A stretch of 64,000 nt of DNA, from contig WGNW01000024.1 of NCBI GenBank assembly GCA_016124315.1, forward strand, positions 54,249 through 118,248, read 5' to 3'. This document shows, one piece after another, positions 28,233 to 61,871 of the stretch. The first letter of the stretch is position 1, and every line of letters starts with the position of its first letter. This stretch comes from Alphaproteobacteria bacterium (GTDB taxonomy: Bacteria; Pseudomonadota; Alphaproteobacteria; SMXS01). The notes beneath the pieces are model-generated. The model had not been told where the DNA came from and made no database searches. It saw only the letters and a list, made by a program, of their open reading frames with translations. Position numbers and translations under genes: made by a program.

Positions 28233-28306
28233 CATGGGCCGGATGATAATCCGAGACAGAAACAAAACAAGAACATTTGAATCGGGAGGCGCTCCCTTCC
28301 TCTCGC

Positions 28307-28410
28307 CGCTCAGGCCGAGTGATCCGGCGCATCGCGCCGGATCGAATCGAGGCCCTGCCGCTGCCGGCGGGGCATCTCGGTGCGCCGCTGCGCGGCACTC
28401 GATGCGAGCG
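28307..28410 (+). repeat. Cloverleaf dispersed repeat, copy A
   Basis: Shares a GATnnGGCGC-nnC-GCGCCnnATC hairpin and CACTCGATGCGAGCG tail with copy B; folds as a four-way junction. Confidence 0.8.
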
Positions 28411-58193: not shown

Positions 58194-58811
58194 ATGAGCA
58201 AGCGGATCAGCGCGAAGTACAAGATCGACCGCCGCATGGGCGAGAACCTGTGGGGCCGCCCGAAGAGCCCGGTCAACAACCGGTCCTATCCGCCGGGCGA
58301 GCACGGCCAGCGCCGCCGTCGCAAGGCGTCGGACTTCGGCAACCAGCTGATGGCCAAGCAGAAGCTGAAGGGCTATTACGGCTCGATCACCGAGAAGCAG
58401 TTCCACAACATCTATGCCGAGGCCGTGCGCCTGCGCGGCGACACCGGCGAGAACCTCATCGGCCTGCTGGAGCGCCGTCTGGACGCGGTCGTCTACCGCG
58501 CCAAGTTCGTGCCGACCGTCTTCGCCGCCCGCCAGTTCGTCAATCACGGCCACGTCCTGGTCAACGGCAAGCGGGTGAACATCCCCAGCTACCGGGTGCG
58601 CGAGGGCGACGTGATCCAGGTCCGCGACCGCTCCAAGCAGCTGATGCTGGTGCTCGAGGCGGTCGAGTCCGCCGAGCGGGACGTGCCCGACTATCTCGAC
58701 GTCGACTACAAGGCGATGGCCGCCACCTTCGTGCGCACGCCGAAGCTGGCCGACGTTCCCTACGCCGTCCACATGGAACCGAACCTGGTGGTGGAGTTCT
58801 ATTCGCGCTGA
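58194..58811 (+). CDS. rpsD: 30S ribosomal protein S4
   Basis: [57 protein letters not shown]4 domain. Confidence 0.99.
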
Positions 58812-58837: not shown

Positions 58838-58868
58838 GGGCCGGATGAAAGTCCGGCCCGTTTCGTTT
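58838..58868 (+). terminator. rpsD intrinsic terminator
   Basis: GGGCCGGA-tgaaag-TCCGGCCC-gTTTcgTTT. Confidence 0.85.
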
Positions 58869-58890
58869 GGGGGGACTGCATCCTCCACAC

Positions 58891-59002
58891 CGCTCTGGTC
58901 GAGTGATTTGGCGCTTCGCGCCAAATCGTATCGAGACCTGAACCGGCTCGACGTCGGCGCATCTCGATACACGGCCCCGCGGGCCGCACTCGATGCGAGC
59001 GG
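58891..59002 (+). repeat. Cloverleaf dispersed repeat, copy B (most intact)
   Basis: Four-way junction: closing stem 58899-58905/58987-58993, arms 906-926, 928-970, 972-986, outer stem 58891-58895/58997-59001. Confidence 0.85.
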
Positions 59003-59019: not shown

Positions 59020-61038
59020 CTATGCCGAGCCGATGCGGCCGCCGCCCTTCTTGGTGATCACCACCACCGACGGGCGGGGCGGCATGTCCGGCTTGAAGTC
59101 CGGCCAGCGGGTAGCCGGGTCGGCGAACGTGGAGGGACGGTCGAAGGCGGGCCATTTGCTGGAATCGCTGTCGCCCGGATGCTGGACCGACAGGAACAGC
59201 GCCTCGCCGTCGGGCGCGAACCGCGGGCCGGTCAGCTCGGCGCCCACCGGGCAACGGAAGAACATCCGGCCCGTGCCGCGTCCTTCGCCTTCCGTCTTCA
59301 GGTACCACAGGCCGTCGGCGGTGGCACCGGCGGGCAGGGTGCCGGCCTGGGTCTCGGGATCGGGCAGTCCCGAATTGTAGGCCCAGGCGCCGCCCTGGTC
59401 GGTGGCGACCCAGAGGTTGCCGGAGGGATCGATGGCGCAGTTGTCGGGCGAGGAGAACCAGCCATTGGCGCTGGTCGCCGGGTTCCACGACGCGCCGACC
59501 GCCTCGCGGGTCGGATCGCCGCACAGCACCAGGAGCTCCCATCGGGCGGTGTCGGCCGCGTGGTCGTTGCCGTCGGGAGCGATCTCGATGATCTGGCCGG
59601 CGGTGTTGTCGGCGCGCGGGTCGGGCCCGGACGGCGGCGGATACCCGGGCGCGCCGCGCTGGGGGTTGTTGGTGAGCATCATGTAGACCTTGCCGGTCTT
59701 CGGATTGGGCTCGACGTCCTCCGGCCGGTCCAGGGGCGTGGCGCCCAGCACGTCGCCGGCGCGGCGGGCGTCGATGAGCACCTGCGCCTGGCTGTCGAAG
59801 CCGTGGGCGGCGTCGAGGCCGTGCCTGCCGTGGACCAGCGGCAGCCAGGCCAGGGTGCCGTCGTCGTTGAACCGGGCGACGGAAAGGGTGCCCTTGTCCA
59901 GCAGGCCGGCGTTCGCCTCGCGGCTGTCCGCGTCGACCTTGCCGTCGGAGACGAACCGGTAGAGATACTCGAACCGGGAATCGTCCCCCATGTAGACCAC
60001 GACCCGGCCGTCCTTGTTGACGATGGACTCGGCGCCCTCGTGGCAGAAGCGGCCGAGCGCGGTGCGCTTGACCGGCGTCGAGGCGGGATCGAACGGGTTT
60101 ACCTCCACCACCCAGCCGAAGCGGAACGGCTCGTTGGGCTCGTGGGCGGCGTCGAAGCGGGGATCGAGCACGCTCCAGCTGCCGCCGCCGGGAATGCTGT
60201 AGCGGAAGTAGCTCGCCCGGCGCGGGTCGTTCTCCGGCAGGTTGCCGCCGAAATATTTGTGGAAGTTCTCCTCCGCCATCAGGTACGTGCCCCAGGGCGT
60301 CATGCCGCCGGCGCAGTCGTTGAGCGTGCCCAGCACAGTCTTGCCGTCGGGGTCGGCGGCCGTCTTCATCAGCGCGTGGCCCGCCGCCGGTCCGGAGAGG
60401 GCCATGGGCGTGGTGACGGTGATGCGGCGGGCGTAGCGGCTGTCCGGCACCACCGACCACTTGCCGTCCTTCCGGCGCACCTCGAGGACCGAGCCGCCCA
60501 TGGCGGCCATCTCCACCGCCGCCTGCTGCTTCAGCGCCGCGGTGCGCGCCACCTCGTCCAGGCCCTCGGGGATCGCCGGAAACATGATCTCCGGGGAGAC
60601 ATATTCGTGGTTGACGCAGAGCAGGCCGTGGTCGGCCTGGCCCCCCAGTGCGACGAAGCCGATGAAGTCATTGTTGTAGCCGAACTGCATGGCCTGGGCG
60701 CCTTCCGTCTGGGCGGCGGGGTCGAAGGCGGGCGCGCCGGGCAGCACCGGGTCGCCCCAGCGGATCAGCACGTCGACGTCGTAGCCCTCGGCGACATGCA
60801 CGGTTTCGTCGACGCCGTGGGCCAGCTCGGCGAAGGCGACGCCAGTGCCATGGTCCGCAGGCGCCGCATCCTTCTCGCCGCAACCCGCGAGCAGGGCCGC
60901 CGGGCTGACCGTGGCGAACGCCGCCGACGCCGCGAGCCCGCCGCGCAGCACCGCGCGCCGGCTGATCCGCCGGGCGACGACCTCGGCGAAGGTGGGGCCC
61001 GGGAAGGGGCGCTCGCAATAGCTGTCGTCATCCCGCAT
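59020..61038 (-). CDS. PhoX-family alkaline phosphatase (Tat-exported)
   Basis: SRRAVLRGG twin-arginine; LCVNHEYVSPEIMFP; GTLNDCAGGMTPWGTYLMAEENFHKYFGG; DNCAIDPSGNLWVATDQGG. Confidence 0.93.
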   Translation of the reverse strand: MRDDDSYCERPFPGPTFAEVVARRISRRAVLRGGLAASAAFATVSPAALLAGCGEKDAAPADHGTGVAFAELAHGVDETVHVAEGYDVDVLIRWGDPVLPGAPAFDPAAQTEGAQAMQFGYNNDFIGFVALGGQADHGLLCVNHEYVSPEIMFPAIPEGLDEVARTAALKQQAAVEMAAMGGSVLEVRRKDGKWSVVPDSRYARRITVTTPMALSGPAAGHALMKTAADPDGKTVLGTLNDCAGGMTPWGTYLMAEENFHKYFGGNLPENDPRRASYFRYSIPGGGSWSVLDPRFDAAHEPNEPFRFGWVVEVNPFDPASTPVKRTALGRFCHEGAESIVNKDGRVVVYMGDDSRFEYLYRFVSDGKVDADSREANAGLLDKGTLSVARFNDDGTLAWLPLVHGRHGLDAAHGFDSQAQVLIDARRAGDVLGATPLDRPEDVEPNPKTGKVYMMLTNNPQRGAPGYPPPSGPDPRADNTAGQIIEIAPDGNDHAADTARWELLVLCGDPTREAVGASWNPATSANGWFSSPDNCAIDPSGNLWVATDQGGAWAYNSGLPDPETQAGTLPAGATADGLWYLKTEGEGRGTGRMFFRCPVGAELTGPRFAPDGEALFLSVQHPGDSDSSKWPAFDRPSTFADPATRWPDFKPDMPPRPSVVVITKKGGGRIGSA

Positions 61039-61126
61039 GGACAGGCCTCCGGCTGACACTGGCGCGACTCTGCGGCATGGGATAGCAGAGAGCCAATGTC
61101 ATTTTCATTAAGTCCGGGGGATCGCC

Positions 61127-61647: not shown

Positions 61648-61741
61648 GTGTCGATATCAGTAAGGCTCTATGCGCAGTCGGATCACGTTTTTATCCTTGT
61701 GATCCTCCTACACGCCGCCTTTTATTTAGGTATGACTTGCG

Positions 61742-61837
61742 GACCGGCGCCGCGCGCCCAATCGTATCGAGACCCCGATCAGGTCCGAGCGGGCGCATCG
61801 CGATACACGGCCCTTCGGGCCGTACTCGATGCGAGCG
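61742..61837 (+). repeat. Cloverleaf dispersed repeat, copy C (5' half degenerate)
   Basis: ATCGTATCGAGACC...GCATCGCGATACACGGCCCTTCGGGCCGTACTCGATGCGAGCG aligns to copy B. Confidence 0.75.
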
Positions 61838-61871
61838 GTGACATGATGGGAAGGACGGGAGCGACGATCGG

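Follow-up and report, generated by a model that had tools for sequence, protein, structure and literature searches.

The palindromic element between rpsD and phoX in this alphaproteobacterial genome is a doublet of two inverted hairpin units, and the unit kept by evolution is the half-element, not the four-way-junction cloverleaf into which the pair can fold. We interpret the element as a REPIN-like, non-autonomous mobile repeat whose working unit is the half-element in the form of a single-strand hairpin, a reading to which we assign a probability of roughly 70%. That this dispersed repeat of two inverted hairpin units is mobile is probable. The anatomy and the covariation are the best supported parts of this reading; least supported are the mobilising enzyme and when the element moved.

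Each half-unit consists, in order, of a tag, N2N1-TCGAGTG, a variable apical hairpin, and GTATCGAGA-N1'N2'. It folds into a hairpin whose stem bears a 2-nt bulge: the basal stem N2-N1-(T/C)CGA pairs with TCG-(AG bulge)-(A/G)-N1'-N2', and a GTG/GTA internal loop lies above it. Two such units, inverted around a linker of 10-35 nt, make up a doublet of about 100 nt. Table 1 gives the features at the rpsD-phoX locus and the other copies in the window, that is, the whole 64-kb stretch of DNA that was analysed. The ends of the linker contain the 3' strands of both basal stems. All of the sequence segments named in the initial annotation were found at their positions within 58890-59002, and the gene coordinates and the Pfam PhoX match agree with the site it proposed, between the rpsD terminator hairpin and the end of the phoX gene. 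The element starts 17 nt 3' of the stop codon of the PhoX-family gene, in the convergent rpsD-phoX gap.

Table 1. Features of the rpsD-phoX element, its neighbours and the further copies in the window
Feature	Position	Strand	Details
Whole element	58890..59002	+	Doublet of two inverted half-units
Left half-unit	58890..58940	+	Tag CCGCTC; basal stem GGTCGA.../...TCG-(AG)-ACC; core TCGAGTG...GTATCGAGA
Left-half apical hairpin	58906..58926	+	ATTTGGCGC-ttc-GCGCCAAAT
Linker	58937..58961	+	25 nt; sequence differs among copies
Right half-unit, inverted	58958..59002	-	CCGCTC-GCA-TCGAGTG-[CGGCCC gcg GGGCCG]-T-GTATCGAGA-TGC
Right-half apical hairpin	58972..58986	+	CGGCCC/GGGCCG
Outer segments	58890-58895; 58997-59002	+	CCGCTC; GAGCGG
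Closing-stem segments	58899-58905; 58987-58993	+	TCGAGTG; CACTCGA
Inner core segments	58928-58936; 58962-58970	+	GTATCGAGA; TCTCGATAC
rpsD	58194..58811	+	Convergent upstream neighbour
rpsD terminator-like hairpin	58838..58863	+	Kept in four congeners without the element
PhoX-family gene	59020..61059	-	Pfam PhoX, E = 7e-164
Second full copy	28306..28410	+	Left half CCGAG...TCGAGG, the compensated C-G variant
Third copy	about 61735..61838	+	Degenerate left half, intact right half

A cloverleaf with two unpaired junction bases, as first described, is indeed the RNA minimum-free-energy fold of the element, at -71.3 kcal/mol compared with -43.9 +- 3.8 for shuffled sequences (z = -7.1); none of 200 shuffles equalled it. 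The same fold is the minimum in all 119 doublets tested, and in this genome it lies approximately 10-18 kcal/mol below two separate halves, a difference that depends on the DNA or RNA parameters used. These energies, together with the near-invariance of the arms TCGAGTG/CACTCGA and GTATCGAGA/TCTCGATAC, are what would be expected if the junction itself were selected, as a cruciform or as an RNA junction bound by protein. The invariant arms, however, are uninformative, and the positions that do vary point elsewhere.

We measured covariation in 240 halves from 120 distinct doublets. Within halves, pairs 1 and 2 (-1/+1 and -2/+2) are Watson-Crick in 93% and 88% of cases, and each uses four pair types with about 1 bit of mutual information; 0 of 2,000 shuffles reach such pairing, in tests that make no correction for the relatedness of the copies. 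That concern is partly answered by the solo halves, by the spread over phyla, and by counts of one half per locus, which give 95% and 89% for the two pairs while off-register partners mostly fall at 7-40%. For the third basal pair there are 328 T/A combinations, 16 C/G, and 3 crossed T/C-A/G (p = 1.7e-24), and the compensation from T-A to C-G is found among the copies in the alphaproteobacterial genome as well. The apical inserts are nearly all different (223 distinct among 240), and 85% of them form stems of 4 bp or longer, compared with 12% of shuffled inserts. Covariation within halves and the folds both support the view that each unit is a palindromic hairpin. Solo halves have no partner with which a cloverleaf could form, yet they retain pair 1 in 37 of 38 cases and pair 2 in 31 of 38. 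Where units lie close together, the inverted head-to-head doublet predominates, with 137 instances compared with 25 of all other close-pair arrangements.

Across halves, the expected pairing fails. Position 2 is paired in 31% of outer and 24% of inner combinations, at or below the level in shuffles, and where this position is G or C the two halves are anti-matched (Fisher p = 0.001, or 0.005 with one element per locus). Because covariation holds within halves, persists in solo units and fails across halves, we rejected the cloverleaf as a conserved RNA or DNA junction, and we consider selection on the four-way junction itself to be quite unlikely. The cloverleaf follows from the side-by-side position of two identical cores in inverted orientation. 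Since it has the lowest energy among the folds of every naked doublet, it may form, and may perhaps be transiently functional. What the initial annotation drew as a 3x3 internal loop is the spot where the halves differ in basal-stem sequence, with GG../..CC on the left and GCA/TGC on the right. A striking cloverleaf can thus come simply from two inverted repeats; it was covariation that located the structural unit in each half. At basal position 2, the halves of doublets favour different bases, G in one and C in the other, a polarity that would be accounted for if left and right ends had to be distinguished or cross-pairing were avoided.

The dispersal of the element is confirmed by BLASTN against the 3.95-Mb genome (E < 1e-3), which gave 38 matches, three of them within the window. 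About 20 of the 38 are full length and about 14 are half-length, mainly the right half, which is present alone some 14 times. The flanks of the dispersed copies are unrelated to one another. Using the element as a BLASTN query, we found no match in any of six congeners, and the rpsD-phoX junction exists as an empty site in five relatives, comprising four congeners and a sister genus (G002, G003, G004, G006 and G007), with insertion junctions blurred by divergence. Elements are intergenic, the median distance to a stop codon being about 50 nt; in the GC-poor loci, 5 of them overlap predicted ORFs.

Because the element is dispersed among unrelated genes, the 3'UTR role specific to phoX that had been suggested for it is unlikely; a general effect on 3' ends is possible. 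A rival explanation holds that the repeat is a non-mobile, host-maintained 3'-end element (a terminator, an mRNA stabiliser, or a gyrase/IHF site) spread solely by segmental duplication. Half of the elements do lie 9-50 nt from a stop codon, and divergent spacers are under-represented (11/68 vs 63/258), but such an element would hardly be so patchy, being absent from the six congeners and, in a sample of 399 Pseudomonadota, from 397, nor would its dispersed copies be expected to have unrelated flanks. With a nested solo insertion in F. pectinovorum also standing against it, we regard this explanation as highly improbable.

That insertion, 31 nt long, is a solo unit made of CGTC and a hairpin (L121:7713-7743). 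It interrupts the apical hairpin of a second copy, whose sibling (L290) is intact and lacks the 31-nt insert. Among 147 elements, tandem arrays aside, we found no excess of target duplications. Inverted doublets and solo units, dispersal, empty sites, and no target duplication place the repeat in the class of REPIN-like mobile units, the option among those offered by the initial annotation that proved right. By analogy with REP hairpins, which are recognised by TnpA-REP, the half-unit hairpin would be recognised as single-stranded DNA, and the doublet would be copied or excised in trans by a putative enzyme. Once transcribed, the doublet could also act as a strong 3'-end structure.

One subfamily appears to travel differently. 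In Lutibacter and Flavobacterium, the doublet lies inside elements of about 180 bp with 19-bp inverted ends AACCCGTTGGGTGYAATTA and target duplications of 6-8 bp. An IS982 transposase is encoded in a Lutibacter MAG by a 1000-bp element that shares these ends (AACCCGTTGGGTGTAATTA; L287:798-1797, G310:C39). Matches to the IS982-type ends, allowing at most 2 mismatches, number 32 in this MAG (G310) and 57 in F. pectinovorum. One could then suppose that the whole family is a DDE-transposon MITE, with the doublet either forming the interior of a classical insertion sequence or bearing its terminal inverted repeats. However, the IS982-type ends flank the doublet rather than forming part of it, and none of the other copies was seen to be surrounded by them, the 1000-bp element has no half-units, and the copies in the alphaproteobacterial genome have neither these ends nor shared flanks nor target duplications. 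We judge this origin very unlikely for the family: an IS982-type MITE accounts for the transport of one subfamily, as passenger or cargo, and not for the whole. The Lutibacter/Flavobacterium carrier resembles IS982-family MITEs such as those of Cardinium (PMC9769881) in its ends and target duplications, and differs from them in that just one subfamily is involved, with the REP doublet as internal cargo.

The REPIN-like reading, as first proposed, came with the expectation of a RAYT (Y1) helper. We searched for one in the alphaproteobacterial genome (84% complete) and in G008 and G009, and found no match to Y1_Tnp (PF01797) or REP_Tyr_transpos (NF047646). PF01797 is likewise absent from seven of seven actinobacterial carriers searched, and in Flavobacteriaceae the presence of Y1 does not track the element (7/12 carriers vs 21/49 non-carriers, p = 0.36). 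Half-units lie near the Y1 genes in L198 and L204, but both inspected gene regions are flanked by other palindromes, and we rejected them as helpers. The gene in L204:1080-2080, from Cellulophaga tyrosinoxydans, is a Y1 transposase pseudogene (in-frame TAA) with its own palindrome CTCAAAGTC..GGAGACTTTG; two half-units lie just upstream. Among the pairs inspected we found no autonomous form, in which a gene would be bracketed by the halves: a 4.7-kb pair on contig C74 encloses ordinary metabolic-type ORFs (read by eye), and the L124 pair encloses a 160-aa protein that is cupin-like by eye. BLASTN gave no match to plasmid or phage vectors carrying the element.

Scanning about 85,000 species genomes for the pattern gave at least 120 stretches with the core. 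Those listed are mostly from Flavobacteriaceae and other Bacteroidota, and also include Actinomycetota (Flexivirga, Gordonia, Microbacterium, Nocardioides, Aeromicrobium and Rathayibacter), the betaproteobacterium Uliginosibacterium, an alphaproteobacterial MAG, and a Dojkabacteria MAG. The core is common to all of these listed stretches and the head-to-head layout to most. With the exact pattern in 2 of 399 sampled Pseudomonadota and 12 of 61 Flavobacteriaceae (two of these picked as carriers), the distribution is patchy. The consensus of the 5' flank is CCGCTCG in the alphaproteobacterial genome, GTCA in Bacteroidota, and CGCTGG in Actinomycetota.

In most descriptions, a REP family is specific to a lineage and associated with a RAYT. 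In the present family a single hairpin core with its bulge occurs in Alpha- and Betaproteobacteria, Bacteroidota and Actinomycetota and tracks no Y1 transposase; this recurrence makes the question of what moves RAYT-less REPs directly testable. A tentative extension, which we think unlikely but conceivable, is that a single core (TCGAGTG-hairpin-GTATCGAGA) defines a REP superfamily in at least three phyla, and that a putative non-Y1 enzyme acting on single-strand DNA would move it, reading the consistently mismatched halves of the doublet as separate left and right ends. More loosely related elements with this layout but other cores, CCTGAGGAGC-hairpin-GTCTCGAAGG and CTGAGTAG-hairpin-GTATCGAAG, are present in other Alphaproteobacteria (L052:1495-1615 and L053:1495-1650; G287 and G021). 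Judging from these sequences, such a superfamily could extend well beyond the elements with the TCGAGTG core.

Among known systems, the REPINs of Pseudomonas fluorescens are inverted REP doublets with a spacer (PMC3116915). Our element shares with them the inverted hairpin pair and spacer, the many intergenic copies, the solo units, and the absence of visible target duplications; unlike REPINs, it has no RAYT that we could find in cis or in the genome (84% complete), its solo and doublet forms are both common, and its halves differ in apical hairpins and basal pairs. In the REP/BIME sequences of E. coli, a bulged REP hairpin is recognised by TnpA-REP (PMC8266576). A tag 5' of an imperfect hairpin, a conserved stem bulge and a variable apical part are common to both, whereas here the bulge is 2 nt on the 3' strand, the core is TCGAGTG/GTATCGAGA, there is no GTAG tag, and no TnpA-REP was found. 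Because the tag varies among lineages, a strict tag of the GTAG type does not define these units. CGTC-tagged REPs, whose tag may also read TGTC or CCTC, occur in alphaproteobacteria and Bacteroidetes; no dedicated transposase is known for them, and they have simple stems of 8-9 bp, loops of 4-5 nt and a CCA tail (PMC3733652). The Bacteroidota units similarly start with (C/T)GTC-A, with CCGCTC as the tag in the alphaproteobacterial genome instead, but the hairpin here is a composite one, with an internal loop, a bulge and a long variable apical stem.

The element had been noted as belonging to no recognised named family, and in Rfam we found no covariance-model match above the gathering score. 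Searches of article text for sequence strings (for TCTCGATAC, among the matches listed) found no description of it. By its anatomy the family is REP/REPIN-like; it may be previously unreported, the literature search having covered the article text of part of the published record.

Several other repeats accompany the family. Other dispersed palindromes, CCTGGATTGCCGCG...GCAAGGACG and TCATCCCCGACTTGTTCGGGG, adjoin many copies in the alphaproteobacterial genome (in the flanks of L002, L004, L006, L015, L017, L021 and L022), where different repeat types cluster together; the CCTGGATTGCCGCG...GCAAGGACG palindromes resemble the CGTC-tagged REPs of the literature. Actinobacterial genomes are rich in GGTCTCGATACG...ACTCGACC repeats, for which we know of no name. 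Doublets and half-units also form tandem arrays with conserved spacing (L139:6156-7312, L161:335-794, L086 and L106), and in part of the L139 array this spacing is about 271 bp.
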